Shown in pieces: positions 40,785 through 54,999 of a DNA stretch of 64,000 bases. Location: contig JAUISW010000001.1 of assembly GCA_030434875.1 (NCBI GenBank), forward strand, positions 2,243,501 through 2,307,500, in the 5' to 3' direction. A program made the position numbers and the translations under genes. Positions within the stretch are counted from its first letter, which is position 1, and every line of letters starts with the position of its first letter. Under the pieces are notes generated by a model. It had not been told where the DNA came from and did not search any database. It was given only the letters and a program-made list of their open reading frames with translations. This stretch comes from Lachnospiraceae bacterium C1.1 (GTDB lineage: Bacteria > Bacillota > Clostridia > Lachnospirales > Lachnospiraceae).

Positions 40785-41414
40785 TTACATATAGATTATT
40801 TCGTAATCAACAAATTCCGAGAAAAATCCATTTATTACAACTTTGAGATTTTTTTCAGCGGCATCATAAATCCCTTTACTTTCAGCCTGTTTTAACCCCT
40901 TTGCCTCAATTTCGGAAATAACATTTTGATATTGGGATATTTCTATAGGGTTTAATGGTGTGTTCACCTCGTTGCATTGCATAGAATCCCAGATAACGTA
41001 GTTATCGTTTAATTGGGCTTTTGGAATTGATATATAAATTTTATCATCACCAACTTTCACTTTAATGTCAGAAACGTCATAACCAACCTTAACAATCCCT
41101 CGTGCTGTAATGTCAATAGTATTGGTTGTTCCAAGTATTTCTAACGAGCTGAAATACCTTGATTCCTGTTCGCTTTGAGAAACTGTATATTCGCAAGAAT
41201 ATGTTGTTAATTCTGACATTTCCTTAAGTTTTGCCTCAATATCATCTTTTGTGACAGTCCTTTTTACAGTTTCCCCCGGAAGCTGTATTTTGCGTTCTAC
41301 TATACGTTCTGAAACTATTTCCTTCGGTGGGATAGTGTACTTGGCAAATAAAAACCCCGAAAGAAAAAATATGATAAAACTTGTCATGAATACAACAATT
41401 TTCCTTTTTGTCAT
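40785..41414 (-). CDS. DUF4230 family membrane-anchored protein
   Basis: 209 residues. One N-terminal membrane segment (about 7-27) is followed by a coil and a DUF4230-like domain (LTTYSCEYTVSQSEQE, ARGIVKVGYDVSDIKVKVGDDKIYISIPKAQL). The domain faces out of the cytoplasm if the positive-inside rule holds. DUF4230 proteins have no firm function. Its ATG overlaps the stop of the NERD gene (ATGA), so the two are translationally coupled, and both belong to a transcript with the shared TGTCCA promoter. This ties it to the CRISPR island. Confidence 0.8.
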   Translation of the reverse strand: MTKRKIVVFMTSFIIFFLSGFLFAKYTIPPKEIVSERIVERKIQLPGETVKRTVTKDDIEAKLKEMSELTTYSCEYTVSQSEQESRYFSSLEILGTTNTIDITARGIVKVGYDVSDIKVKVGDDKIYISIPKAQLNDNYVIWDSMQCNEVNTPLNPIEISQYQNVISEIEAKGLKQAESKGIYDAAEKNLKVVINGFFSEFVDYEIIYM

Positions 41415-42439
41415 AATGTCTCCTTTCCAACCCGACAGTTATTGTTAAATGGGTTAAATATAGTACCTGCAAGCTTGAGGTTAATGAGATTCTTCATATT
41501 CCTGATAAAGCAATCCAAAAATGTAAGCTTTTTTACCTTATCTATTCCGGTATTTGATAAAGCTTTTGAATATGCGACATACGCTTCAGCAAATGACATT
41601 TTGACACTCATCGGATCAAACCTTATTGAAAAGCGTTTTTTGATTGAGGTCATATTTTCAAGTACGTTATTCAACGATTTCAATTCTTTATAAGTGTAAT
41701 TCGTAGTGCTTTGGAAATTATCTATCCTTCTGTAAAGTGTACCTCTGAATCCGTAATTTTCCTTTTTGTATTCATCATGAACCTGTATCCTTACGCCGGA
41801 CGGTGTTGAAAAAACAATCATGCTATCTACAATTACTCTTTTATTGATTCCAAGTCTGTGAAATTCATCTGTGAGGATTTTTGACAGAAGATACCTCTTC
41901 TTATCCATCTTTTCGCCAATGTTAACTTCATGCTTACATATCGAATTACTCATTAACAACCTACCATCCTTAGTAATGGTCACATCCTCTTTGGCATTCT
42001 TGATTTCAAGTATAATGAAACCATTCCTGGTCAAAACAATTGTGTCTATCTCGGTTTCATTGAATCCATCTGAAAGATAAATGTTTCTATAAAATGAAGC
42101 ATCGTCTCTCTTCACATACTGATAAGTATCAGCGACCCTTTCTTCTCCACACTTTCCAGCAAATGCAATCGCAATTTCCGTATTAAGAAAGTTTAATGTC
42201 TCTATTCCATTTGAAGTAAAGGTATTATCTGTGCCGCCCTCTATCTGTGAACTTCCAAGGATATCTGCAACTTCATTCAGCCTTTTTATGTTCCCATCAG
42301 GATTGCCTGTTATTATTTCGGAAACTGTTTCCTGATATTTATTCAACTGATTAACGTATTCCTCAAATGTATAGTCGGATCTCGTAAAAATCCCTCTTTT
42401 CTCGAATATGGAGATAATATCTTCTACTGTATAGTTCAT
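41411..42439 (-). CDS. NERD-domain nuclease-like protein
   Basis: 342 residues. The N-terminal 100 residues are helical. From about residue 105 a NERD domain shows GKCGEERVADTYQYV, the ETEIDTIVLTRNGFIILEIKN core (Asp then E-x-K, the PD-(D/E)XK signature) and the LLMSNSICKHEV strand after it. NERD domains are predicted DNases common in defence and mobile loci. The ATG at 42439 follows a near-perfect AAGGAGGTGA. It lies 16 nt after a 28-codon membrane-peptide gene and overlaps the DUF4230 gene. An immune effector role alongside Cas13a is my inference. Confidence 0.83.
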   Translation of the reverse strand: MNYTVEDIISIFEKRGIFTRSDYTFEEYVNQLNKYQETVSEIITGNPDGNIKRLNEVADILGSSQIEGGTDNTFTSNGIETLNFLNTEIAIAFAGKCGEERVADTYQYVKRDDASFYRNIYLSDGFNETEIDTIVLTRNGFIILEIKNAKEDVTITKDGRLLMSNSICKHEVNIGEKMDKKRYLLSKILTDEFHRLGINKRVIVDSMIVFSTPSGVRIQVHDEYKKENYGFRGTLYRRIDNFQSTTNYTYKELKSLNNVLENMTSIKKRFSIRFDPMSVKMSFAEAYVAYSKALSNTGIDKVKKLTFLDCFIRNMKNLINLKLAGTIFNPFNNNCRVGKETL

Positions 42440-42455
42440 AATTTGCATCACCTCC

Positions 42456-42542
42456 TTAAATCCATGCAGTAATAAATACTGCGATATAGAATAACACAAT
42501 TAACCCAACAATAAATAAAGCGACTTTCATGATTTTTGCCAT
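42456..42542 (-). CDS. 28-residue single-span membrane peptide
   Basis: MAKIMKVALFIVGLIVLFYI followed by AVFITAWI: a short positive N-terminus and one hydrophobic helix filling the rest. AAGGAGG lies 8 nt before the ATG. It is the first gene of the peptide-NERD-DUF4230 transcript, with its start about 38 nt from the predicted transcription start. Size and context suggest a small membrane toxin, sensor or assembly factor; none is demonstrated. Confidence 0.7.
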   Translation of the reverse strand: MAKIMKVALFIVGLIVLFYIAVFITAWI

Positions 42543-42586
42543 GTATGTACCTCCTTTTTTGATATGTGTTTTCTTTTGTTGAGACA

Positions 42587-42620
42587 ATAATAGCAATTCT
42601 GTTTTTTGAAAATTTGGACA
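42587..42620 (-). promoter_or_regulatory. Island promoter A (TGTCCA-22-TATTAT)
   Basis: On the minus strand TGTCCA (42615-42620) is 22 nt upstream of TATTAT (42587-42592). The sequence right after the hexamer is AATTTTCAAAAAAC, matching the same stretch in promoters B and C at 49777 and 51001. A consensus -35 box is absent, so an activator or a repressor overlapping -35 is likely. Confidence 0.65.
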
Positions 42621-42643
42621 CTTGAACTGATGCTTAAAATCAA

Positions 42644-42680
42644 AGAAGACATGATTTATCAAATCTAAATCATGTCTTCT
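42644..42680 (-). terminator. Terminator of the CRISPR array transcript
   Basis: AGAAGACATGATTTA and TAAATCATGTCTTCT are perfect 15-bp arms with a 7-nt loop, followed on the minus strand by TTTGATTTT. It lies 55 bases beyond the last decayed repeat, in the right place to end pre-crRNA synthesis before promoter A. Confidence 0.7.
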
Positions 42681-42735
42681 GGTTTTTAACATCAAACTTT
42701 AATGCAATTTTTCAATCAGACAAGGTGTCATCTAA

Positions 42736-43579
42736 TGGCATCTATATCTATATTTAGCCTTTCTCAATCTTTTAGCATACTTATTGGGGAGAAATCCAAC
42801 TATCGTCAACTCTATTTGGCTTTTCTCAATAATAACTACGTAGATATCTATGTAGAAGTTATGGAGTCTATTGCCATCTTTATCTGGCTTTTCTCAATCG
42901 TGTTCTCAGATCTATGCCTTCAGCTAACTACAGCTAGTCTATTGCCATCTTTATCTGGCTTTTCTCAATCTTGAAACTTTGTATGAATCAATGAAGATAT
43001 ATTGTCTATTGCCATCTTTATCTGGCTTTTCTCAATCAAGCCTACAATTTCAGGCAAAGATATTGTTTTAGGGTCTATTGCCATCTTTATCTGGCTTTTC
43101 TCAATCTTAAAAGAGTTTGATTGTGTAGTCGTTCATTCCTGTCTATTGCCATCTTTATCTGGCTTTTCTCAATCTATAATGATGTTGATACAAAAACTAT
43201 TGAATCGTCTATTGCCATCTTTATCTGGCTTTTCTCAATCCAACAACAAGAAATCCAGTTCGATTGAGTATACTGGTCTATTGCCATCTTTATCTGGCTT
43301 TTCTCAATCTGGTATTGAATTTCTATATGCAAAATCTACGGAAGTCTATTGCCATCTTTATCTGGCTTTTCTCAATCCATAACATCGTTGAGAAAGAAAA
43401 GGATGAAACAGGTCTATTGCCATCTTTATCTGGCTTTTCTCAATCGAGATCTGGACATTGATCGAATACGAGAAACGGTCTATTGCCATCTTTATCTGGC
43501 TTTTCTCAATCAAATAACTGCAACATCCATGCTTGATGCGATCAAGTCTATTGCCATCTTTATCTGGCTTTTCTCAATC
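42736..43579 (-). CRISPR. Type VI-A CRISPR array, 11 intact and 2 decayed repeats
   Basis: Eleven identical 34-bp repeats start at 42866, 42937, 43004, 43073, 43141, 43207, 43276, 43344, 43412, 43478 and 43546; on the plus strand each begins GTCTATTGCCATC and ends GGCTTTTCTCAATC. Ten spacers of 32-37 nt separate them. Two decayed repeats end at 42769 and 42830, marking the trailer end, so transcription is on the minus strand. The crRNA repeat then starts GATTGAG, can pair GCCA with TGGC around an 8-nt loop, and ends AATAGAC, as in Lachnospiraceae Cas13a arrays. The spacer follows the repeat 3', as Cas13a needs. Confidence 0.97.
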
Positions 43580-43724
43580 CCTATCTTTTGTAGGGCTTAT
43601 TTTATATGGCTTAGAATAATATTTTGCGGCGCAAACGCGATTAAGACATTCATAATTAACAATTTAATCCCAATTTCATCGTAACAAAGTGCTCAAACAT
43701 TGAAATTACTGGTTGCGGCGCAAA
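43580..43724 (-). promoter_or_regulatory. CRISPR leader with two TTGCGGCGCAAA dyads
   Basis: This AT-rich stretch between the cas2 stop and the first repeat is the leader by position. TTGCGGCGCAAA, a near-palindrome, occurs at 43624-43635 and again at 43713-43724, about 89 bp apart, in an otherwise GC-poor region. They may be binding sites for adaptation or a regulator. A promoter must lie here but I cannot fix its boxes. Confidence 0.6.
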
Positions 43725-44018
43725 TTAAAGCCATCTGTAGGTTTCTTTCTGCAACACAGGATTTTTTCCAATATGAACCTGCTTACAGTCATTTTGAAGC
43801 TTATAAATTCTTATACTGTCATTTTCTTTATCTGCAATCTTCATAGCTTCCCTGATCATTTTCTTGTAAAGGAATGAGTGTATCCACACCTCGAAAGCAG
43901 ATTTTTGAACCCTGATTCCGTATTTATTCAAGGTTTTTGCAAATTTTTCCCTTCGTCTGTTGTCAACTATATCATATATGACAAGAGCATATACTTTGTC
44001 ATCATCCATTAGAATCAC
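43725..44018 (-). CDS. cas2: CRISPR-associated endoribonuclease Cas2
   Basis: 97 residues with a ferredoxin-like fold: YALVIYDIVDNRRREKFAKT with the conserved Asp after the first strand, GIRVQKSAFEVWI and a late SIRIYKLQNDC strand. It forms the integration complex with Cas1. Its start overlaps the cas1 stop by 4 nt, and the array leader begins right at its stop codon. Confidence 0.95.
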   Translation of the reverse strand: MILMDDDKVYALVIYDIVDNRRREKFAKTLNKYGIRVQKSAFEVWIHSFLYKKMIREAMKIADKENDSIRIYKLQNDCKQVHIGKNPVLQKETYRWL

Positions 44019-45025
44019 CTCAATACAATTGGCTGGTAATCAGATGAATGCTGGTTTTTAACCATGAATCTGAATGAATGTATCTGGTGCGCTACTGCTT
44101 CATAAAAGGTTAGCTTCCTTTCAGCTCCATGAATATACTGACACTTTGACTGCATTTTACCATGCAGTTTATTAATAAGTTTTCTTATTCCGTTTTTTCC
44201 AAGATAGACGGCATTTTCGAGAAAATCAAAGTCCACCGGTAAAAGTTCATTTCCCAAAAGCATTCCAATTACAGTAGAATCAACGATGGGCTGTCGCCAT
44301 TCTTCCATCAAATCACATGATAAGGCCGGCCTGTTGTACCCGTTCGAGTGTAACATTCCTATTTCTGCTACAAGCCCCTCACTGCTGATCCTTGCAGTCA
44401 GAATATTGAGAAGAAAGGTATATCCCATGCTCAGAGCTGCATTGAATGGGTCTTTTGGAGGACGTTTATTTCTCCCCTTAAATGTGAACCTGCTTTCGGA
44501 AAAGAGGCTTCCGAGAGCCTTAAAGTAAATTTTTCCGGATATTCCCTCAATACCCATTATTTCTGACTGTTTCTCTGCCCTCATTAAACGGTTTTTCATT
44601 GATTTTAGCATAGCTTCATAATTCGGACAATCGCTTTTCTCACTAAAGTTGTGAGTTCTGTCATATCGTCTAAGAACAGTAAGCTGGTTGTTGATCTTGG
44701 CCTCAATAATGCTTTTATCAAAACTCAGTCTCTCAGCAGAATTATCTAAAAATTTGCATTGATTGATAACCACGTCTGACCTCATGACATCTTCTGATGA
44801 GATTTTACCGTTATAATGTCCACCGTATGAGTAATACAGTATCGGAATGTCCTCACTTAAACACGTATTAATGGCCTGAGTTGTCATTTGAACATTCCCA
44901 AACATCGAGATTGATTCTACCATGTGTAACGGCAGACGAGCTGTACTTTCCGTATTCCTTTTTATCACAAACAGGTTGTTGATGCAGGAAATATGGGTTC
45001 CCTGATCATAGATGTATACATCCAT
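44015..45025 (-). CDS. cas1: CRISPR-associated integrase Cas1
   Basis: 336 residues. The N-terminal beta domain (NLFVIKRNTESTARLPLHMV) and C-terminal helical domain are clear; the catalytic set fits the DPFNAALSMGYTFLLN region, His in GMLHSNGYNRP and the acidic cluster in CDLMEEWRQPIVD. It inserts spacers at the leader end. Ten nt separate it from cas13a, so effector and adaptation genes are one operon. Many type VI-A loci lack cas1 and cas2, so this is a complete, self-sufficient version. Confidence 0.95.
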   Translation of the reverse strand: MDVYIYDQGTHISCINNLFVIKRNTESTARLPLHMVESISMFGNVQMTTQAINTCLSEDIPILYYSYGGHYNGKISSEDVMRSDVVINQCKFLDNSAERLSFDKSIIEAKINNQLTVLRRYDRTHNFSEKSDCPNYEAMLKSMKNRLMRAEKQSEIMGIEGISGKIYFKALGSLFSESRFTFKGRNKRPPKDPFNAALSMGYTFLLNILTARISSEGLVAEIGMLHSNGYNRPALSCDLMEEWRQPIVDSTVIGMLLGNELLPVDFDFLENAVYLGKNGIRKLINKLHGKMQSKCQYIHGAERKLTFYEAVAHQIHSFRFMVKNQHSSDYQPIVLR

Positions 45026-45035
45026 TATAGCCTCA

Positions 45036-48000
45036 TTATTTTAATTTTATATCTGACAAATTAAGCAGGTCACCAATTGATGAACCAAACCTGCTGTTAT
45101 TTGATTTTGGTTTCCCAAAATTCAGCTCTCTTTTACCTTTTGTATTTCCGGTATGAGCTTGACTGTCTTTTGAGCCGTTCATCGGTGTACTGCTTCTGAC
45201 GACCTCGACAGCGATATCATCAGGATAGGAGATAATCCTGGCAACGTTATTCAGAAAATCCTTGCTGCGTGCAGGAATTTCTGTTGGCTTAGTGGAATCT
45301 TTGAGCTTATATACATATTTGTCGGAATCAACGCCATTTTTTTCTCTAAGTGTACAGTAAGCAGATGGCTTTTTTATATTCTTTTCCTTTCCAACAGATT
45401 TCTCTCCGCTTTCGAAGGTATAAGCAGTAACAACCTGATGCGACAGAAGGATATTATACATCATATTGATGACATTTTTTCTCAGACGGAAATCATAACT
45501 TAAAAATCTGTCAAATATCTCACTGTAAATGCTGAGCATACTCCTGTCATACTTGTTGAAATATGCAAAATGCTCAATATATCTTCGAAGTTCGACCATG
45601 TTATCATGTTCGGCAATATTTTCAAAAATCTCCATCCCAGACAGATATATTTTTCCTCCATAATTCTGCCTGTCTGGATCAAGACCATTACCGTAGGATA
45701 GAAAATATTTTATTTTGACACCTATTGACTCGTTGGCATTTGTAGTCCCTTCAATAACCTTATTCTTTTTGAAATTGTATCTGGACGATATATAGTCAGT
45801 ATCTTCATTCTTGTAATACTGCTTTAACCCATTGGTATACATGGAAACTATCTGGTAAAGGATTGCTCCATTCAAAGTTTTACCATCTGTGCTTATACAA
45901 GCATATCCATCGGGCTTGTAACTGTCATTGTTTAAGCAGCAATAATGGAACCCAAGCTGGAAGTACATAAGGTCTCTCTCTCTAAGATAAACCCATTTTA
46001 TGAGCTGCCCCTGCAGTTCATTTAGTATTTCCGAATATTCTACGATATCACGAAGCTCGACTCTGTTTTTAAGCTCCTGGTACTTCTTTAGTGTTTTTTG
46101 CTCTTCTTCATTACGACATATACCGTTTTTCTGGTACCCTGCAATTTTGTCCTGCTGATTCATATAGCTGCTTATCATATCAATGTTTACCGGATCGAGT
46201 TTGGCAGATATGGGACCAAGCATGCCGTACATCTTACAGAGAACCACATTTCTGTTAACAATGGGGTTCAGCCCATCATAGTATATGCCGATTTTTTTGC
46301 CGGATATTTCCTGGTTGCAGAAAGTTCTTAACGCAACTGATGATTTTTCATTCCCATAATCAAGGTATTTCCCTACATATTCTGAATATTCATCCTCATC
46401 CCTGAAATAATCACTGATTTCATTGCTTGTTGTTCCGTTAAGCTTTGTGCATATATCAAGTATTTCAAGGATATGGACAATATCTATCGTCATGTTGTAG
46501 TCCTTGATTGCATTTCCGGTTTCTTCGGCACGTCTCAAAATATTATTTACATACTGCTGATAGTGTCTTAAATCGCCAGCAAAAAGATTGACCTGTCTAG
46601 GATTTATGAGCCTGCCTAAAACATACCATTTTTGAAGCTCAGGAGACGTTTTTACGATAGCAATAATACCGGCAAATCTGTCTGATCTGAACTCAGGAAG
46701 AAATTTATCAATATCGGGTAGTCCATCTGGCTTTTTAACGGGATGCTTTATAAAGCCGTAATGATCCTCATTTTCCATGAGATAGGTCATAAATGACTGA
46801 CGCAATCCTTCAAGCAGAGCCATCTTATAATGCTGGAATTTCTTGGGATGCATTTTTTCGGCATAATGCGATTGCTTTTTACCTCCAACATTACTCTGAT
46901 TCTGATGGTTGTATTCGGTCATGATCTGTTGGCAAAGCTCTGATAATGAAATATCAGCATTACTGTAATGCCTGACAGCGGCTTTGAAATTTTCAGCAGG
47001 TTTTGTTTCTTTAGTGGTTTTTCCTTTTTCATCCTTTTCTATCTTGAGATTATTTACATAGTCAAGGAAGAGCTCAAGTGATCTTTTTCCCTGCAGGAAG
47101 TCATTATAGTATATTTCCTTGAAGAGAAAATACACAGCATTCTGCCACTTCTGCACATCAGCATCAGTATCGAAAGAAGCTTTATATCCGTTCCTGATAA
47201 GACACTCCGGAAAGTTCTTTCTTACAAAGACACTATTAAAAGCTGAAACCTGCGAAGCCCTTTCGTAATAACTGCCATAAAGTCTTTTAAGAACCTTTTC
47301 GAGTGATGTGTCAGAATAATACATAGGTAGATTGCTTGAATAAAACCTGTTCCTGATAACCTTAAATGTTCTGAAACAGTCATTTTCAAACATCTTTCCA
47401 ATAAAGGACATATTCCAACTGCCATTATTAACGTTCTCTGTAGCAAAGTGGAAGGAAGAGTTTCTAAGCGAGTAAATTATGTCCTTCATATCTTTGAGCA
47501 GGGAGAGCTCGTCGTAATCTACTGTAAAGTTACTGTCACAGAAATCCTTCCACGCTGAATAGCCGCCGAAAAATTGCATTATGTTATGTGCTATTCCCGG
47601 AACAGCGAATTTCTTCAGCTTGTCGTCATCCAAAGTCAGGAAATCATTCTTTTCCGCAGTTTCTTCATCCAAAGAAACCGTTGCATTAGCAAGGTAGTTG
47701 GCTGCAAATGCAACATTTACAGATAATTCCCTTTGCAATGTTTCTTCAGCCTTTGTAAGTTCGTACATGAAGGAAGTTATCCCATTACTGTATTTTTGCT
47801 CAATCTCACCGAATCTGAGTTCTTCCTTTCCGGAATGAATATCCTGCATCGTACAGTTATATACAGCTTTGCCAATGGCTATGTATTTAATACTGATATA
47901 ATTTATGATGCTTTTCCATACTTTTTCACTGATATAGCCTGAGCTGAATTTGTAATCACTATTATACTTTATAAATCTGAACAGCTTTTCTACCTCATTT

Positions 48001-49007
48001 TCGATATAATGTATCCAGAAAATGTTAATGTCCATATCTTCAAAAAAAGCTGAGGGAGTGGATTTAACATATTTGACGCTCCGTCTGTAGAGCATAATGT
48101 TCTTCTCCCTTACGGAATCCCTTATTACATCAGCATCATAGCCTTCCTTTTTGTTATTATGCGAATCAATGACCGTTTTCTTGACTATTTCAACAAATCC
48201 GTCAGTAATGGATTTTTTCAGTTCATGGTCTTTCCATTCGTCAAAATCCTGTTCATTTACAGCTTCTGAACCATAAAAATACAGATTCACAATCCTTCTC
48301 AGTTTCAGCCGCATTCTATGACGTAAGGAATCGTCAAGTACTGCATATTCCGAAAGGAATCGCTTAAATGCCTTTTTCTCAACAGCATTTCCTCCCTTTT
48401 GTGAAACCTGTGGAAGTTCAAGGGTTTTGGTTTCAATATCATACTGGACTACCATATTCTGATTTTTTATTGAATCAGGAACACAAGTTTTTATATCCGA
48501 TTTGGAATACTCCTTTATAAGCTTTTTAATAAAGCAGTCCTCAATGAGTTTCCTGTCAGAATCATCAATGTTCTGATCAAGTCCTGATATATATTCAAGA
48601 AGCTTTCTGACTGCAGCTTTAGTATTCCCGTTCCGGAAGCTCTTTTTCAGCCTGATATCCAAGATTTCATTGATTAAGTCATCATTTACCTTAACACCCT
48701 TACAGTTACTGATAAGGGACTCGCTAAGGATTTCAAAGGTAAGGGAATTATTTATTCTTCGGCTTTTTGCCAGTTCACGTATTGATATATTGAAATTTTT
48801 GGCGAGGTCTTTTGATTTTTTTGCATATTCTATTTTGTTATTATTAAATATATTGAATAGGATTTTCGTTGCATTTGCACGTTCATTAACAATGTCGGAC
48901 AAACTCTTGTTTTCGTGATTAGGATCCTGATATATGAACCCGCCTATTTTGTGCTCAGTTATTTTTCCAACAGCAGTACGCCGATGGTCAACTTTGGAAA
49001 TTTTCAT
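45036..49007 (-). CDS. cas13a: Type VI-A RNA-guided RNase Cas13a (C2c2)
   Basis: 1323 residues, in the normal Cas13a range. Two HEPN catalytic motifs are present: R515-N-S-S-F-H520 (SLRNSSFHFATENV) in the middle and R1141-R-Y-I-E-H1146 (ELRRYIEHFAYFNKYDRSML) near the C-terminus. That spacing is the Cas13a layout; Cas13b has them at the extreme ends. The LRERDLMYFQLGFHYCC stretch and FLSYDFRLRKNVINMM are also Cas13a-like. Both HEPN pairs are intact, so crRNA-guided target cleavage and collateral RNA cleavage are expected. AGGAGG precedes the ATG. The last 40 residues are a Ser/Asn/Lys-rich tail. Confidence 0.96.
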   Translation of the reverse strand: MKISKVDHRRTAVGKITEHKIGGFIYQDPNHENKSLSDIVNERANATKILFNIFNNNKIEYAKKSKDLAKNFNISIRELAKSRRINNSLTFEILSESLISNCKGVKVNDDLINEILDIRLKKSFRNGNTKAAVRKLLEYISGLDQNIDDSDRKLIEDCFIKKLIKEYSKSDIKTCVPDSIKNQNMVVQYDIETKTLELPQVSQKGGNAVEKKAFKRFLSEYAVLDDSLRHRMRLKLRRIVNLYFYGSEAVNEQDFDEWKDHELKKSITDGFVEIVKKTVIDSHNNKKEGYDADVIRDSVREKNIMLYRRSVKYVKSTPSAFFEDMDINIFWIHYIENEVEKLFRFIKYNSDYKFSSGYISEKVWKSIINYISIKYIAIGKAVYNCTMQDIHSGKEELRFGEIEQKYSNGITSFMYELTKAEETLQRELSVNVAFAANYLANATVSLDEETAEKNDFLTLDDDKLKKFAVPGIAHNIMQFFGGYSAWKDFCDSNFTVDYDELSLLKDMKDIIYSLRNSSFHFATENVNNGSWNMSFIGKMFENDCFRTFKVIRNRFYSSNLPMYYSDTSLEKVLKRLYGSYYERASQVSAFNSVFVRKNFPECLIRNGYKASFDTDADVQKWQNAVYFLFKEIYYNDFLQGKRSLELFLDYVNNLKIEKDEKGKTTKETKPAENFKAAVRHYSNADISLSELCQQIMTEYNHQNQSNVGGKKQSHYAEKMHPKKFQHYKMALLEGLRQSFMTYLMENEDHYGFIKHPVKKPDGLPDIDKFLPEFRSDRFAGIIAIVKTSPELQKWYVLGRLINPRQVNLFAGDLRHYQQYVNNILRRAEETGNAIKDYNMTIDIVHILEILDICTKLNGTTSNEISDYFRDEDEYSEYVGKYLDYGNEKSSVALRTFCNQEISGKKIGIYYDGLNPIVNRNVVLCKMYGMLGPISAKLDPVNIDMISSYMNQQDKIAGYQKNGICRNEEEQKTLKKYQELKNRVELRDIVEYSEILNELQGQLIKWVYLRERDLMYFQLGFHYCCLNNDSYKPDGYACISTDGKTLNGAILYQIVSMYTNGLKQYYKNEDTDYISSRYNFKKNKVIEGTTNANESIGVKIKYFLSYGNGLDPDRQNYGGKIYLSGMEIFENIAEHDNMVELRRYIEHFAYFNKYDRSMLSIYSEIFDRFLSYDFRLRKNVINMMYNILLSHQVVTAYTFESGEKSVGKEKNIKKPSAYCTLREKNGVDSDKYVYKLKDSTKPTEIPARSKDFLNNVARIISYPDDIAVEVVRSSTPMNGSKDSQAHTGNTKGKRELNFGKPKSNNSRFGSSIGDLLNLSDIKLK

Positions 49008-49125
49008 ATATTTTGTCCTCCTGGATTTTTTACGCTATCCACCATATTTTATATCGACATATCATGCTTAAATGATAAGGTGCTTTTTCATTGTTACGTG
49101 CATTATTTCAGGTTCATGATTGGGA

Positions 49126-49170
49126 GGGTCATAAGGATTCTTACATTACGAAGAATATTCCTTATGACCC
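49126..49170 (-). other. Long hairpin in the cas13a leader
   Basis: GGGTCATAAGGA (49126-49137) and TCCTTATGACCC (49159-49170) pair perfectly and TTCTT/AAGAA extends the stem. No T-run follows, so it is not a standard terminator. It separates the 58-aa gene from cas13a; a TATAAA box downstream (about 49046-49051) could be a cas13a promoter. It may be an attenuator, an mRNA-processing site or an operator. Confidence 0.6.
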
Positions 49171-49187
49171 TTATATGACGATAAATA

Positions 49188-49364
49188 TCAATATCCGTCG
49201 TCGTTCATTGCCTGTTCCCATTCATCCGGAGTATCGGTTACACAGTCCAAATCCCCGTTTGAATCATACCAGTCAGTACGCCCTTCACCATCGTCATAAC
49301 CTTCAAAAATCTGTCCGTCATCGTTTCTCCAGTATCTGTCCGGTTCATCATGATAGTTTGCCAT
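49188..49364 (-). CDS. 58-residue highly acidic protein upstream of cas13a
   Basis: The frame runs from ATG 49364 with AAAGGTGG nine nt upstream to TGA at 49188. The protein (MANYHDEPDRYWRNDDGQIF..., ...DEWEQAMNDDGY) is rich in Asp, Glu, Tyr and Trp with few Lys or Arg, so its net charge is strongly negative. No membrane segment or known motif is present. It lies between a glycine-zipper gene and cas13a on the same strand. Acidic small proteins often mimic nucleic acid, so a Cas13a inhibitor, regulator or immunity protein are all possible; this is inference. Confidence 0.65.
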   Translation of the reverse strand: MANYHDEPDRYWRNDDGQIFEGYDDGEGRTDWYDSNGDLDCVTDTPDEWEQAMNDDGY

Positions 49365-49430
49365 AAGTTAATACCACCTTTCTTATTTGAGCTTTTAAAT
49401 CAAATGAATGTGCTCAATGCGCTTTTTGGG

Positions 49431-49634
49431 TTACATACGGTCAATCTCGCTTCCAACCTTGTTTCCACCGAGTAGTCCTATTATGCCTCCTATGATTGCA
49501 CATGGTATGGTGCCTGCTACAGCTCCAACAGGACCGCCTACGGCTATTCCTATATGCGCTCCTTTTATTGCACCGGCAGCTGCTCCTGCCGCCATTCCGG
49601 TTAAGCTTCCGATAATTTCTGATGTTCTTTCCAT
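49431..49634 (-). CDS. 67-residue glycine-zipper membrane protein
   Basis: Nearly all of residues 8-57 is hydrophobic with GxxxG/AxxxG spacing (GMAAGAAAGAIKGAHIGIAV; IGGIIGLLGG) as in glycine-zipper and class II bacteriocin-like peptides. One Lys, one His and a Cys break the helix pair. AGGCAGG precedes the ATG. It is the first sizeable gene after promoter B and lies 66 nt before the acidic 58-aa gene. It probably oligomerises in membranes; pore formation as an immune effector is inference. Confidence 0.68.
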   Translation of the reverse strand: MERTSEIIGSLTGMAAGAAAGAIKGAHIGIAVGGPVGAVAGTIPCAIIGGIIGLLGGNKVGSEIDRM

Positions 49635-49776
49635 ATAATTTACCTGCCTTTCATAGATTTAACACTTCCTGAGAGCAAAAAATAATTACTCACAGGATGT
49701 TGACCTGCCTGATTGTGAATTGAAATTGATTAACATCGCCTCCCTTCGTATGGTTACTTGTTTTCCTGATAGTAGG

Positions 49777-49810
49777 ATTATATCAAGGCGTATTTCGGAT
49801 TTTTTGGACA
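49777..49810 (-). promoter_or_regulatory. Island promoter B (TGTCCA-22-TATAAT)
   Basis: TGTCCA (49805-49810) is 22 nt upstream of a perfect TATAAT (49777-49782) on the minus strand. The hexamer is followed by AAAAAATCCGAAAT, nearly identical to promoter C. It drives the glycine-zipper, 58-aa and possibly cas13a genes. A short ORF, MLINFNSQSGRSTSCE (49686-49736), with AAGGG before its ATG lies in the leader and might be a leader peptide. Confidence 0.72.
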
Positions 49811-49811
49811 C

Positions 49812-50843
49812 CTATTCAAACAGGCTGAAGAATCCACCTACTACGTTGCCAACCCCTTCTGCTATATCACCTGCAAAGTCGATTGTATTACAGATAGCAT
49901 CGAAAGTTGTATCAACGGATTTATCTATTGAATCAAAAACCGCATCGCTTGCCGTATCAAAGAATTCTTCAACGGTACTCCCAACCTCGTCAGCAATCGT
50001 TTCGGCTATAGAACCTACACCTTCTGCTACTACACCTGTAACTTCACCGATTTCATCACATACTTCAGATACAGCTTCTCCTGCTACACCACCGGCAACA
50101 ACACCGGCACCTATTCCTATAGCAACTTTTGCAACCAGGGGAATAGGAGCCACCGCCAGTAAAGCCATTGTTCCTTCCGATGCTGCGGCTCCTACTCCCG
50201 AAGAAACAGCACCATTAAGGGCACTGGATGTTATATTCGCCGTAGCGGTTTCTAAATCGTCACCATCTGCAATGGATTTTATTGCCGCAATCCCTCCTGA
50301 TATAGCACCTCCTGTCTTAGCAGCAGAAAAAACAATATTACCCATGCCTGTTACAGATGATATATTATTAAACTTATTGCTGATCCGACTTGTATCATTA
50401 GTGGATATTCCTGAATCTTTCATTACTTTTTTTATTCCTGAGCCTGCGGCTTTGGAATTGAAAGCAGATGATGTTTCGCTTGTACCTACAAGCTGTGCTG
50501 CATCATATTTCCCACTTTTAACCTGTTTAATGGTTTTTGCTATACCGGATGTACTTGGAGTATCCTTGCATTGAATCCTCTCAAAAACCTTAGAATTCTT
50601 CATAGTTACCAGATCTACCTGCTTAGCAGTAGGAGATTTGGTAAAAACTGTACTCATATTTCCATCACTGAATAGATTCCTGAGATTAGACTTATCTGAA
50701 TACATTACCTCTAAGGCAATCCCTTTGCCTCCCTTTACTGACTCAGCACCAGCCCTGCCTGCCATCCTACTTGCAACGGAATAATCATAGGCTTCTGTTA
50801 ATATTGTTCCTGAAGTTCTTCCCTTATTGTCTTTTTTGTTCAT
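49812..50843 (-). CDS. Predicted nuclease-like protein with glycine-rich membrane C-terminus
   Basis: 343 residues in two parts. The N-terminus (about 12-130) has KGGKGIALEVMYSDKSN and QVDLVTMKNSKVFERIQCKD; Asp77, Gln91 and Lys93 fit the D...QxK variant of PD-(D/E)XK nucleases. The C-terminus (about 155-343) is Gly/Ala/Val-rich with several possible membrane helices (PLVAKVAIGIGAGVVAGGVA) and acidic amphipathic stretches, ending GNVVGGFFSLFE. AGAGAGG precedes the ATG. It has its own copy of the island promoter. Not recognised as a named family; a membrane-targeted DNase is my reading of the layout. Confidence 0.6.
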   Translation of the reverse strand: MNKKDNKGRTSGTILTEAYDYSVASRMAGRAGAESVKGGKGIALEVMYSDKSNLRNLFSDGNMSTVFTKSPTAKQVDLVTMKNSKVFERIQCKDTPSTSGIAKTIKQVKSGKYDAAQLVGTSETSSAFNSKAAGSGIKKVMKDSGISTNDTSRISNKFNNISSVTGMGNIVFSAAKTGGAISGGIAAIKSIADGDDLETATANITSSALNGAVSSGVGAAASEGTMALLAVAPIPLVAKVAIGIGAGVVAGGVAGEAVSEVCDEIGEVTGVVAEGVGSIAETIADEVGSTVEEFFDTASDAVFDSIDKSVDTTFDAICNTIDFAGDIAEGVGNVVGGFFSLFE

Positions 50844-51000
50844 ATTAGATACCTCTCTTCTAAAATTTCGTCAGATTACATGTCTGTATCTTGCCAATCT
50901 ATCCAATTCATACATTATTGCTACAATTTGTTCCACAGCTTGTTACTGTAGTATCCGCCTCCTTCCTGCTTTTCTAAGTACTTTTATATTTGATATTGTA

Positions 51001-51034
51001 AATATATCATTGTTAATTTTGGATTTTTTGGACA
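51001..51034 (-). promoter_or_regulatory. Island promoter C (TGTCCA-22-TATATT)
   Basis: TGTCCA (51029-51034) is followed by AAAAAATCCAAAAT and, 22 nt from the hexamer, TATATT (51001-51006) on the minus strand. It serves the 343-residue gene and lies back to back with the original promoter of the WYL regulator. Confidence 0.68.
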
Positions 51035-51067
51035 GTATTAAGAGCAATGAAATAAGCAGGGGAATGC

Positions 51068-51073
51068 TATAAT
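51068..51073 (+). promoter_or_regulatory. Original -10 box of the WYL regulator gene, now separated by an IS
   Basis: A perfect TATAAT ends 6 bases before the IS. Removing the IS and one copy of its target duplication joins it to the TAGGAGG and ATG of the WYL gene with about 30 nt between -10 and start codon. No clear -35 is seen. Confidence 0.6.
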
Positions 51074-51177
51074 GAAAATGATAGTGTCAAATGATCTATG
51101 AAAAAACAGGGTATAAAAAATAGGCTCAGATGAACCTTGAAAATTGCAGATATATAGGTTGAGGTAGCCGGACGCCA

Positions 51178-51298
51178 CCCTTGACAGCACAAAAAATAAC
51201 TGCTGACGGTAAATCACCGACGGCGAAGAACTCAAGAACAATCAGATTTTCTCCGTCGATTACAGCAGTGTAGCAGTTATTTTTTGTGCCATCAAGGG
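51178..51298. other. Long structured stem in the IS non-coding region
   Basis: CCCTTGACAGCACAAAAAAT... (51178-51204) pairs with ...ATTTTTTGTGCCATCAAGGG (51272-51298), 27 nt with only a two-base mismatch; an inner GACGG/CCGTC pair and an outer GTAGCC/GGCTA pair extend the fold. It occupies the IS part with no gene. It may insulate the transposase from outside transcription or be a functional RNA. Confidence 0.6.
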
Positions 51299-51354
51299 CA
51301 ATGCCGCTAACGCGGTGGCTAGGTTGATACCTCGGGCTCAGAATCTAAGAACAA

Positions 51355-52806
51355 TCAGCTGGCTTCCTGAAGCTCCAGTATCTTTTTCTGGCCGAAGTAT
51401 ATCATTGTTTGCCATTTGGCTGGCATGTTTTCAGCTTTTGAGAGTATGTCATCTACAACTGGAGGCTTGAAGCCATTGTGTTTGTGCGGCCTCAGAAAGT
51501 TGTAATACGCAACCCAGAGAGTCAGATCATAGTTGGCACCATCGTAATTATCGAATCCATTGGTGATGCGATATGAGGCTTTGTAAGTACGGTTAAGGCG
51601 TTCTATCATCTGCTTAAATGGACGATATTCCTTGGATACTTCGTCATTGTTTTGGAGACCGATTACCTGGGTGATTTCAAACTTGAACTTTTCTCCAAAC
51701 TGGCGGAAGAACTGCTGTGCAGCTAAAGGATATGCGCTGTAACCATCAGCTATGAACTTAAAGTTTTTGGGGAGTTCAGTGATACCTTTGAAGGCCATTC
51801 GCATGGCAAGAATGCAGGGACCGACACCACGATTGTCAGATATCTGATAACCAATGATGGCTCTGGTGGCAGCATTGAGTATAAGCCAAACATAACCTTT
51901 GATTCCGCGGACTTTGATATATGTTTCGTCAGCAGCAAATGCAGAGCCCTTTTCGTAGGGATAGTTATCTACAAAAGGTTTAACACAGATGGCTGCTGTT
52001 TTGCAGTAGTTGGCGATCTGCTGATGGGATATAGATATGCCATATAGATCAGATAATGCCTGCCTTGTTTTACGAAGAGATAATCCAAGATTGACGTGGA
52101 ATGTAAGGCAAAGAGACATGATATATGCGTTGTGCTTATTAAACTTAAGCGATGATGCATTCTTCGGAAGAGAATTTAAGTCCATCTTAAAGAAATCTAT
52201 CGTGAATTCGCGGTAGATGTAGTGAAGCTTATATTTATTCTTCCCATAGTCTTCATCAAGGTCTTCTTTATCAACTTTCTTTAGATTGCGGAGATAGTAA
52301 GAACACTTGGGATTAACGCACTTATGGATGACGAAATGCTTACGGTCTTTCTTGCGGACAAGAGTGTGCTGACAGTGCGGACACTTTAGAGACATCTGAT
52401 TATCAAAGCGGTTGTCACCAGGAGTGAATGCAGTCTGGCAGATCTTACACAGTATCTGGCCTGCCTTGCCATTGTTTTTGTAGAGATAAGGCTGAGGTGC
52501 ATGACATGAAGGGCATGTGCAATCCTCCGGAATGTCAAACTCAGAGCGTCTCTTGATAGGCTTAACAGGTTTACCATAGCGCTGGGTATAGTAGTTGTTG
52601 AGATCTTTCCAATCCCAATCATGATGGTAATAGACAATCTTAGGCAGTTCATCAACTTTGAACTTTTGATATTTTGGTGAATGGGAGTCATCGAAAGCCC
52701 ATTGCTTAAGCGGTACATATCTGCAGATGAAATTTATCAGCCAGCAGTTTTGTTGATAGAGTTGTTGAATGATTTGTAGTAAATAAAGTATAATGTTCAC
52801 GAGCAT
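51355..52806 (-). CDS. DDE-type IS transposase with zinc ribbons
   Basis: 483 residues. The N-terminus has two zinc-ribbon-like Cys clusters (CTCPSCHAPQPY...CKIC; LKCPHCQHTL...CVNPKC). An HTH (LGLSLRKTRQALSDLYGISI) precedes the catalytic domain with DDE candidates in FAADETYIKVRGIKGYVWLI, FKFIADGYSAYP and MIERLNRTYKASYR. The frame is intact and the IS ends are complete, so it should be active. The N-terminal zinc region is longer than in standard IS6 enzymes. Confidence 0.9.
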   Translation of the reverse strand: MLVNIILYLLQIIQQLYQQNCWLINFICRYVPLKQWAFDDSHSPKYQKFKVDELPKIVYYHHDWDWKDLNNYYTQRYGKPVKPIKRRSEFDIPEDCTCPSCHAPQPYLYKNNGKAGQILCKICQTAFTPGDNRFDNQMSLKCPHCQHTLVRKKDRKHFVIHKCVNPKCSYYLRNLKKVDKEDLDEDYGKNKYKLHYIYREFTIDFFKMDLNSLPKNASSLKFNKHNAYIMSLCLTFHVNLGLSLRKTRQALSDLYGISISHQQIANYCKTAAICVKPFVDNYPYEKGSAFAADETYIKVRGIKGYVWLILNAATRAIIGYQISDNRGVGPCILAMRMAFKGITELPKNFKFIADGYSAYPLAAQQFFRQFGEKFKFEITQVIGLQNNDEVSKEYRPFKQMIERLNRTYKASYRITNGFDNYDGANYDLTLWVAYYNFLRPHKHNGFKPPVVDDILSKAENMPAKWQTMIYFGQKKILELQEAS

Positions 52807-52959
52807 TGTCTCCTTGGTTTATGAAGGTTTGGTCGCTGACATTATACCAAAAAGGGAGGTCAATGCTCATTTTATTTTAACCTCCCGATAAATCAAGGTT
52901 TTAGAACTAAAAACGGGTAGTAAATTTGACACTACCATGAAAATGTAGGAGGCATCTAT

Positions 52960-54999
52960 ATGAAGAAAAAAGATGAAAGAAAAAAATGGATATTGGACTA
53001 TCTGGAAAAGAATGATAATGAGGGAATATCAAGCAGAATATTCATGGAAGGATGTGGAGTTAACAGTAAATCAACTTTTAAGAATTATATAGATGAGCTT
53101 ATAATTGAAGGGTATATAAATAGCGAACCCTTAGTGAAAAACGGAACTCCTTTCTATTTATTGAAAACGGATGATAAAACTGGATTTTACTATGAACCTA
53201 TTAACAAGAACGTATACCATAAAGCCATAATTCTCTTCACAATTTCGCTTTCGGATATGAAAGGTATTGCTATTACCGAATTGTTCAATAGGATTACAGA
53301 TTATGAGAACGATGGAGACTCAGGTTATATAACGATTGAAATAAGTGACAATAAGCTTAGGGAGTATCTTAATGAACTTGAAGCTGAAAAGAAAATAGTA
53401 AACATCTCTGAATCTAACGAAAAAATCTATAGGGTTGTCGAAAGATATTGTCTGATAGATGAATTAAAGGATTATTTTAATGAGGCTTTTATAGATAGGT
53501 TTTATAATCTTCACGATATGGATTATATCAGGAAATACTCCGAGTTATCGTACTTGCTGGGAATTGATCATAATATTGGGCGAATTATCAATCCATCGGC
53601 AATTACAATGATAAGTGAAAATGAAAGAAAAATAAGTAGTTGTCTCAGGTTAAGGTATGATGGGGTACCATCCGGGCTTATAGACTCAAACAAAAGAATG
53701 TTGGATCGTATTTCGGTAAATCCTGACAATTCCCTAATACATGAAGGAGAAAATCAGGATAAGAATTTCGAAGTAAGATATGAGAACAAATTTTACTATG
53801 ATAAACTGATTAAAACAATACATACACTTGGCAAGGTCTGTACTGTTATCAAGCCCGCTTCAGTTATTAACACAATCAGATCAAATCAGGAAAGACTGAT
53901 TGACTTTTACGCTACCGGAATGATCAAAGCGGATAAGAAAACAGATAGTAAAGTCATGGATATTGAAGGTATAAAACCTGATAATAATTTTTTGTTAAAA
54001 GCATATTTCAGGATCAATATTTATATCAACGAATTAACATCTAAGAATTTTAAAGAGATTTCAGCCGGTGTATCTATTTCAGACATTGCCAATAGATATG
54101 ATATTCCCATAGAAATTGTACGAAATGATATATGTGCCATTTTGTTTTCTTATAAGGAATGTATGCCGTTTTACAAAAAGGAATATATTGATGATAAACA
54201 GAAGTCTTATACGGACTTTAACCGAAACAGCATTCTGGAAGGCAATTTTGATCAAGTAAATATATATACCGAGTTCAAAGATTTTGGTATATATAGGCTG
54301 GATCAAAGTATAGTTGATTTAATCGACAGACTATCTATAAAGGATACTTCTTCGGATTATAAAGATATATTAGACAGATTATGTAATGCTATATCAAAAA
54401 GGAAGCAAGTACTTATAAGGGTATCCGGTGAGAAAAGGCCAAAGTTAGTAAATCCTGTTGATTTATTATACGACCCTTTTGCAGACGAAATCTTATTGCT
54501 TTATGGAATTGATAACAATTTTAGTAGCGTTAAGCTTTCAAAGCTGAAAAAATTCAGAATTGATGACTGGTATGATCCCAGAAATGTTCCTAAGTACATA
54601 GAAGAAATTAAGGATAAAGTTATACTTAAAGAAATTTTACGAAAGGATAGCTATGTGATTATTCTCACATGGGATAGCCGGTATAATGCCGAGAAACTAA
54701 ACGATATTGAAAAGCATGTTTGGGGAGCAGGATATGACAAGGCAGCAGTAAATGTTAAGGCTAAGTTTCACAAATGTATTTATGAGGAAGTACTAAATGA
54801 CTGTAAGTTTACAGATTTAAAGAATACCATATCCGATATAGAGGGGGATTATTTCTACTTTGAAGACGTAGTATATGGAATTGACTCATTCAAGAAGTGG
54901 CTAAGAAGTTACTTACCATATGCAGTTCTTATTGAACCTAAGCAGGATGCGGAAGAAATGCTAAATAGAGTAAAACTGACATTGAAAAACTATCAATAA
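52960..54999 (+). CDS. WYL-domain transcriptional regulator of the CRISPR island
   Basis: 679 residues. A winged-helix domain (KKWILDYLEKNDNEGISSRI; GVNSKSTFKNYIDELIIEGY) starts the protein. The long middle is mostly helical with another HTH-like GVSISDIANRYDIPIEIVRN. The C-terminus has a WYL domain (about 480-545; RKQVLIRVSGEKRPKLVNPV, LLYDPFADEILLLYG) and a WCX-like extension (SYLPYAVLIEPKQDAEEML). WYL proteins regulate or bind ligands in CRISPR and phage-defence loci, and accompany Cas13d. AGGAGG precedes the ATG. The stop codon abuts the IS1380 end, so the last residues could be altered. Confidence 0.85.
   Translation: MKKKDERKKWILDYLEKNDNEGISSRIFMEGCGVNSKSTFKNYIDELIIEGYINSEPLVKNGTPFYLLKTDDKTGFYYEPINKNVYHKAIILFTISLSDMKGIAITELFNRITDYENDGDSGYITIEISDNKLREYLNELEAEKKIVNISESNEKIYRVVERYCLIDELKDYFNEAFIDRFYNLHDMDYIRKYSELSYLLGIDHNIGRIINPSAITMISENERKISSCLRLRYDGVPSGLIDSNKRMLDRISVNPDNSLIHEGENQDKNFEVRYENKFYYDKLIKTIHTLGKVCTVIKPASVINTIRSNQERLIDFYATGMIKADKKTDSKVMDIEGIKPDNNFLLKAYFRINIYINELTSKNFKEISAGVSISDIANRYDIPIEIVRNDICAILFSYKECMPFYKKEYIDDKQKSYTDFNRNSILEGNFDQVNIYTEFKDFGIYRLDQSIVDLIDRLSIKDTSSDYKDILDRLCNAISKRKQVLIRVSGEKRPKLVNPVDLLYDPFADEILLLYGIDNNFSSVKLSKLKKFRIDDWYDPRNVPKYIEEIKDKVILKEILRKDSYVIILTWDSRYNAEKLNDIEKHVWGAGYDKAAVNVKAKFHKCIYEEVLNDCKFTDLKNTISDIEGDYFYFEDVVYGIDSFKKWLRSYLPYAVLIEPKQDAEEMLNRVKLTLKNYQ

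Follow-up and report, generated by a model that had tools for sequence, protein, structure and literature searches.

A conserved promoter element around Lachnospiraceae Cas13a loci and a tandem WYL protein as its candidate activator

Proteins with WYL domains have been described as regulators in several systems. In mycobacteria and other actinobacteria, PafBC is reported to reprogram the housekeeping RNA polymerase holoenzyme at its own promoters, the RecA-NDp promoters, and to be activated by single-stranded DNA (PMC11804915); its site is described as non-palindromic, and the protein as fused in some species (PMC6789036). DriD, a WYL activator of Caulobacter, is likewise described as acting with the housekeeping holoenzyme (PMC12340889). 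BrxR and CapW are reported as WYL regulators encoded with phage-defence systems (PMC9122601, PMC9122588), and WYL1 of type VI-D systems is described as lying beside the Cas13 effector, Cas13d (PMC6547453). Here, we analyse 64,000 nucleotides (nt) of the 4.23-Mb genome of Lachnospiraceae bacterium C1.1 (JAUISW010000001.1; this whole stretch is hereafter the window), which hold a type VI-A CRISPR-Cas locus with its Cas13a effector, three promoters that share the hexamer TGTCCA at one distance from the -10 box, and a gene for a 679-amino-acid (aa) tandem WYL-domain protein. Sequence comparison across genomes gives good support to a conserved promoter family around Lachnospiraceae Cas13a loci, with the WYL protein as its candidate activator.

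The locus resembles the PafBC system in having a tandem WYL protein and a non-palindromic target in promoters without a -35 box, the WYL protein being the putative reader of that target. Sigma adaptation of the housekeeping polymerase is described for PafBC, which drives DNA-damage genes, whereas the promoters here stand before CRISPR neighbours. DriD differs as a homodimer that binds a 20-bp pseudo-palindrome at varying positions; here, we find a tandem protein, an asymmetric site and one position. BrxR differs in being described as a repressor on inverted repeats (PMC9122601). WYL1 is said to boost effector function (PMC6547453), whereas the tandem protein here looks like a DNA-binding transcription factor. 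Cas13a promoters of Rhodobacter capsulatus are reported to respond to stress, by a mechanism that the authors left open (PMC11089165). Among titles and the openings of abstracts, with subscription papers and bioRxiv preprints mostly outside this coverage, we found no description of such promoters at Cas13a loci.

Three promoters around the Cas13a locus

A preliminary description of this DNA had placed TGTCCA, followed after exactly 22 nt by a -10 box, at three places on the minus strand. Its coordinates were right: TGTCCA-N22-TATWWT matches the window exactly three times, all on the minus strand, at 42587-42620, 49777-49810 and 51001-51034. Shuffled windows give an expectation of 0.06 matches and none of 100 reached three, which, together with the cross-genome results below, bears out the view that the identical spacing is not due to chance. 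TGTCCA by itself is not enriched in the window (30 seen, 26.3 expected). None of the three sites had been credited with a consensus -35 box, and none appears among the 35 sigma-70-like sites listed for 42400-51200, consistent with a missing -35. Beyond the hexamer, they share a long element composed of TGTCCAAAWWWTC, more A residues and then TGN-TATWWT. The extended -10 (TGN) is thus present at all three, as is the sequence YAWC at a fixed place five bases 3' of the -10; neither feature, nor the insertion element described below, figured in the preliminary description. Taking the A of this YAWC as a predicted start (+1) puts the hexamer at -40 to -35.

Promoter W1 (42575..42620, minus strand) has TGTCCA at -40 to -35, an A/T tract, the extended -10 TGCTATTAT and a predicted start at A 42580. 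It lies before the genes for a 28-aa membrane peptide, a NERD-domain protein and a DUF4230 protein. Promoter W2 (49765..49810, minus strand), with TGTCCA, the extended -10 TGATATAAT and a predicted start at A 49770, lies directly 3' of the stop codon of a gene for a 343-aa protein and before the genes for a 67-aa and a 58-aa protein, cas13a, cas1 and cas2. Promoter W3 (50989..51034, minus strand), with TGTCCA, the extended -10 TGATATATT and a predicted start at A 50994, precedes the 343-aa gene. W1 and W3 have counterparts in the genome MA2020, at L030:2922 and L030:7053, respectively.

In the whole genome, the bare TGTCCA-N22-TATWWT pattern occurs at background, with nine matches against eight for a reversed control, so the hexamer and -10 alone would not prove a regulon. 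The regulon that had been proposed stands as a promoter class around the Cas13a locus and falls as a genome-wide regulon of the bare pattern. The 34-nt pattern TGTCCAAAWWWTCNNAAAN7TGMTATWWT, with up to three mismatches, finds only these three places in the genome and none in the control. Because this pattern was built from the three window sites themselves, the decision had to come from other genomes.

The element in related genomes

Relatives were gathered by searching one genome per species with a Cas13a alignment, giving 23 loci from 22 genomes. Nearest in layout is MA2020, with identities of 60% for the NERD protein, 60% for the DUF4230 protein, 62% for the 343-aa protein and 30% for a full-length WYL protein. 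There, TGTCCA-N22-TACTAT precedes the peptide-NERD-DUF4230 operon and TGTCCA-N22-TATTAT lies between the divergent WYL gene and a gene run from the 343-aa relative to cas13a. The same element before the same genes agrees with the earlier proposal that the promoters around the CRISPR locus belong to one class. A weight matrix found sites with TGTTCA, not TGTCCA, in two Pseudobutyrivibrio genomes, SIG312 and SRR873597, and a whole-genome search added three more Pseudobutyrivibrio sites (L103, L104 and L105), on contigs with genes typical of such neighbourhoods (cas1/cas2, a 694-aa-type gene) or, in one case, next to a glutamine synthetase gene where the contig ends. In NK4A179, TGCACA-N22-TANNNT with an extended -10 occurs in the upstream region of cas13a and immediately ahead of a DUF4230 gene, and in RGIG4848 ahead of a DUF4230 gene adjoining cas13a (Pfam E 1.9e-17 and 2.2e-19 for the two DUF4230 genes directly behind the element). 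Butyrivibrio YAB3001 carries five TGTACA sites in its Cas13a locus and a sixth before a NERD-like gene (Pfam 20.2 bits, under the cut-off of 22.1) beside a pair of WYL genes.

A motif search over the genome and related Cas13a loci, as the preliminary description had suggested, thus yields 20 sites with TGNNCA-N22-TANNNT in seven Cas13a-bearing genomes, 18 of them with the extended -10 TG and 17 with YAWC. With starts predicted, most of these are extended -10 promoters of the TGN-TATAAT-like type without a good -35. The middle letters of the hexamer are uniform among each genome's kept sites and differ between lineages: TC in the window (three sites) and MA2020 (two), TT in SIG312 (three) and SRR873597 (three), CA in NK4A179 (two) and RGIG4848 (one), and TA in YAB3001 (six). 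Two Pseudobutyrivibrio sites that lack the extended -10 TG (L105:5531-5573 and L032:9783-9825) precede similar receiver-like genes and have leader sequence in common.

Several candidates were set aside. Three further TGNNCA-N19-TG matches in the window and MA2020 (TGTACA, TGTTCA and TGGTCA) have no YAWC and were counted as chance. An upstream-model match at L033:8724 has TATAAT at the right distance; it starts with CGTTCA and lacks YAWC. Pseudobutyrivibrio OR37, whose Cas13a is 46% identical, shows no convincing site, and its genome gave no match to a tandem WYL protein; the candidate before its 794-aa gene (L031:1076) has neither an in-register extended -10 nor YAWC.

The start region and the spacing can be judged by counts. 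The first four genomes contribute 11 sites, and YAWC is present in every one of them, compared with 126 of 6322 background positions; a search that used YAWC supplied three of these sites (L103, L104 and L105) but not the other eight. Models of the first 18 bases, made with the tested genome left out, rank the window sites 1, 2 and 6, those of SIG312 1, 2 and 4, and those of SRR873597 1, 2 and 3; one MA2020 site ranks 1 and the other falls outside the ten listed. In a spacing spectrum over 12 loci with a WYL pair or the motif, N19-TG has 21 matches, against 50 over 20 other spacings together (mean 2.5), and YAWC accompanies 15 of the 21 and none of the 50. Among 16 other Cas13a loci, N19 has two matches, neither with YAWC. 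This grouping of loci was made with the sites already known.

Many unrelated genes with the same motif and spacing had been named as a sign against the regulon, a check that the promoter class withstands. A search of 387 genomes of the family with the exact 43-nt pattern, TG and YAWC included, returns the three window sites plus a single match elsewhere, in genome G140; the reversed control matches none. The 18 kb around the G140 match hold no tblastn relative of the WYL, Cas13a, NERD, DUF4230, 343-aa or 694-aa proteins; this match and seven on viral contigs, likewise without tblastn relatives in the surrounding stretches, were taken as chance. Without the TG, the 43-nt pattern matches exactly four times in the window genome (one elsewhere, G000:C1:46631), once in MA2020 and three times each in SIG312 and SRR873597, with no exact match in OR37, YAB3001, NK4A179 or RGIG4848. 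One mismatch brings the counts near background (for instance, SIG312 three against seven in the control, MA2020 seven against five), and only exact matches were used, plus the second MA2020 site, which was already known.

The tandem WYL protein and competing readings

A tandem WYL protein occurs in all seven motif genomes, fused in the window and MA2020 and as gene pairs in the other five. Over 23 genomes, seven have the element and the WYL protein, one the WYL protein only and 15 neither (Fisher 3.3e-5, relatedness ignored); most were judged from the Cas13a locus alone, OR37 was searched whole, and related genomes are not independent. In NK4A179 and RGIG4848 the pairs lie after cas13a and after a gene of 746 or 732 aa, all in one direction, and the first member of the YAB3001 pair, cut at the edge of the stretch, aligns to the first-unit profile at 97%. 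The WYL-A/WYL-B pairs at L047:7337-9672 and L037:16614-18957 follow cas13a and a 750-aa-type gene with the same orientation, unlike the WYL genes of the window and MA2020, which are divergent. Among the window proteins searched, only the WYL protein and the locus-defining Cas13a are represented by relatives in each of the motif loci from MA2020, the two Pseudobutyrivibrio genomes, NK4A179 and RGIG4848. Viral contigs gave no relatives of WYL or Cas13a, plasmid records no match to the 343-aa or WYL protein, and phage records no WYL match.

By fold search with an AlphaFold model, the solved structure that best matches the 679-aa protein is PafBC of Arthrobacter, a natural fusion (E 1.3e-9); DriD comes second, and BrxR and CapW lie lower. 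BrxR and CapW reportedly have one WYL unit per chain. The two halves of the protein here align to each other (hhalign 95%). The first unit of both fused proteins is shorter, with its WYL part apparently reduced, which bears on how well they fit a scheme of two helix-turn-helix-WYL-WCX units.

Element, spacing, conservation, lineage-specific spelling and co-occurrence with the tandem WYL protein are established at the level of the sequences compared. The preliminary description's idea that the WYL protein may act at these sites agrees with this co-occurrence and with the modelled fold. On balance, we think it probable that these sites form a promoter class under common control at Lachnospiraceae type VI-A loci, activated by the tandem WYL regulator with the housekeeping polymerase. 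The promoters combine an asymmetric TGNNCA and its A/T tract, at about -40 to -23, with a YAWC start region at a fixed place; they have no -35, and most have an extended -10. The locus's own tandem WYL regulator may bind the element as a pseudo-dimer and, like PafBC, supply the contact with housekeeping RNA polymerase that is missing for want of a -35. It would be turned on by a nucleic-acid ligand that arises in infection or damage. WYL binding, activation, ligand and start sites we infer. The lack of a -35, the mostly extended -10, the asymmetric element at a fixed distance and a direct repeat together favour activation by the WYL protein. This 9-bp repeat is seen in several sites (51 of 77 cells, with 14 of 5000 permutations as good) and scores better than the best dyad (39 of 66 cells, without a null), which has one arm inside the -10 hexamer.

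Several observations weigh against this reading. The sites of PafBC and SiwR are described at about -26, that of PafBC adjoining the -10, and the hexamer here lies at -40 to -35 with its tract reaching -23, counted from the predicted start, so the contacts would not be identical. YAWC is missing from three of the 20 sites and the TG from two, and the direct repeat is nearly absent from the MA2020 sites (0 and 2 of 7). Four of the five sites in the YAB3001 Cas13a locus are near-identical copies, and the WYL pair of that genome lies outside the fetched locus. In the Pseudobutyrivibrio loci L032 and L052 there is no element between WYL and the cas13a operon; L033 gave no element score, and the Kineothrix locus L040 has WYL-pair matches and no element. 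The Pseudobutyrivibrio sites serve accessory genes, not cas13a. The AlphaFold model is a weak one (mean predicted local distance difference test score 67, predicted template modelling score 0.39), and by sequence the WYL protein matched no PDB chain, PafBC chains included (best E 0.53). Likeness over whole sites, leaving out YAB3001, averages 30.2 of 44 within genomes (11 pairs) and 25.4 between them (80 pairs), with overlapping ranges. W1 scores 26 with both W2 and W3 and is no nearer to them than to the two MA2020 sites M1 (26) and M2 (29); the pairs M1-M2 (36) and W2-W3 (33) exceed W1-M1 (26). As extra evidence for a trans-acting factor, such likeness is weak.

Among the alternatives, we regard it as unlikely that the same WYL protein is a BrxR-like repressor at the element, released by a phage-derived ligand. 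CapW is reportedly a repressor as well, and the element overlaps the place of sigma's would-be -35 contact, where binding could block polymerase. BrxR is reported to repress its own defence locus by binding inverted repeats (PMC9122601), whereas the best dyad here uses the -10 hexamer and scores below the direct repeat. Moreover, the modelled WYL fold appears nearer to PafBC and DriD than to BrxR or CapW, and the absence of a -35, with a distance to the -10 that never varies over the 20 sites, suits an activator; the searches partly required this distance, and the spacing spectrum did not.

Somewhat less likely again is a different regulator, or an alternative sigma factor, that reads the element and leaves the WYL protein a mere neighbour, as the WYL-positive locus L040 without an element and the placement of the YAB3001 pair could suggest. 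However, the -10, extended -10 and start look housekeeping-like, and confinement of the element to these loci fits a locus-specific factor, for which the WYL protein is the sole shared candidate among the window proteins searched besides Cas13a.

We give little credence to a promoter cassette duplicated within each genome without a dedicated regulator. The near-identical YAB3001 copies and some much-alike same-genome pairs (36 and 40 of 44) speak for duplication, but other same-genome pairs are no more alike than pairs across genomes, and the pattern is kept in seven genomes with differing spelling and constant spacing. A chance match singled out at first reading, despite the background count of the bare hexamer and -10, is rejected by the uniqueness of the 34-nt pattern and the cross-genome results, namely the MA2020 sites, the held-out models, the 387-genome search and the spacing spectrum. 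A known structured RNA was dropped as an explanation, the window having no Rfam match anywhere.

Genes behind the element and their possible role

The locus belongs to type VI-A by its Cas13a, its CRISPR array and cas1-cas2, with cas2 named from its position. On the minus strand, cas13a (45036..49007, 1323 aa; PADLOC Cas13a E 6.9e-182) is followed by cas1 (44015..45025; Pfam Cas_Cas1 E 4e-78) and cas2 (43725..44018, 97 aa), the latter named by its place after cas1; its relatives adjoin cas1 in several loci. The array (42746..43579, minus strand by inference) has 11 near-identical repeats and two degenerate copies at its low end (42746-42839), which adjoins promoter W1. Between array and W1 is a terminator-like hairpin (42644..42680, minus strand), one of seven such sites found where shuffles lead one to expect 5.1.

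All genes behind the three promoters lie on the minus strand. Downstream of W1 are the 28-aa membrane peptide (42456..42542), whose 29-aa MA2020 counterpart at L030:3003 was read from sequence, the 342-aa NERD-domain protein (41411..42439; Pfam NERD E 2.3e-12; identity to MA2020 over residues 1-288) and the 209-aa DUF4230 protein (40785..41414; Pfam DUF4230 E 9.7e-19). The 343-aa protein (49812..50843; identity to MA2020 over residues 12-327) has a glycine-rich, hydrophobic C-terminal half and nothing above cut-off in Pfam, with only a sub-threshold DUF6236 match. Behind W2 come a 67-aa glycine-zipper protein (49431..49634; Pfam Gly-zipper_Omp E 2.1e-05, 24.8 bits with a cut-off of 25) and a 58-aa protein (49188..49364) to which the Pfam scan assigns no function.

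The tandem WYL regulator, our proposed activator, is encoded on the plus strand (52960..54999) and comprises two related units (PADLOC WYL E 5.9e-9). Between W3 and this gene lies an IS240-type insertion element (51080..52936, minus strand; DDE_Tnp_IS240), apparently intact, with two further genome copies that are both 100% identical, and flanked by the 8-bp target duplication ATGAAAAT. It now probably separates the WYL start codon from the gene's original -10, for which TGCTATAAT (51065..51073, plus strand) is the likely candidate by sequence; the WYL reading frame is intact.

At the related loci, a gene of about 750 aa (L031:1196-3457 and relatives) has relatives in 13 of the 23 loci L030-L052, in several of them as the immediate neighbour of cas13a on one side or the other; MA2020 has no relative, and the gene falls into no Pfam family above cut-off. 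A second, partial copy of the region with the 59-aa gene, the 343-aa-type gene and cas1/cas2 is present in MA2020 (L030:18299-20596), and the stretch before it is without the promoter element. The 694-aa protein at L032:10308-12392 has very weak DHH similarity and a hydrophobic C-terminus, and a 51% identical relative lies near cas13a in Pseudobutyrivibrio OR37. In YAB3001, the first site is followed by a GTPase-like gene whose end is glycine-rich, and at L041:3951-4760 four element-preceded open reading frames of 24 to 31 aa, three of them near-repeats, encode hydrophobic products with lysine-rich ends that look like small membrane-active peptides.

Certain targets recur behind the element. 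DUF4230 genes are found there in four genomes and NERD or NERD-like genes in three; the window has its glycine-zipper protein; and short hydrophobic peptides occur in the window (28 aa), MA2020 (29 aa) and YAB3001 (four, of 24 to 31 aa). Under WYL activation, the output would consist of accessory genes, which encode glycine-zipper, NERD and DUF4230 proteins as well as short membrane peptides. In the window, MA2020 and NK4A179 it would, going by position, also include the cas13a transcription unit. Such an output may form an inducible, membrane-acting arm beside Cas13a. We tentatively go a step further, to a private promoter code in which the tandem WYL sensor and its TGNNCA promoters changed spelling together by lineage; this may give each locus its own insulated programme, induced by infection and controlled by sigma adaptation outside actinobacteria, in which membrane-acting peptides and nuclease-like proteins join Cas13a.

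The element bears on two little-understood points, the activation of type VI-A systems and the extent of their gene neighbourhood. The shared promoter code names candidate members: if it holds, Cas13a would have functional partners, rather than bystanders, in the short membrane peptides and the glycine-zipper, NERD and DUF4230 proteins. The four spellings offer a natural series of regulator and site pairs for the study of DNA recognition by WYL proteins, and the locus is a possible case of sigma adaptation in Firmicutes. If the private code is real, it would give RNA-targeting immunity a second, inducible arm.

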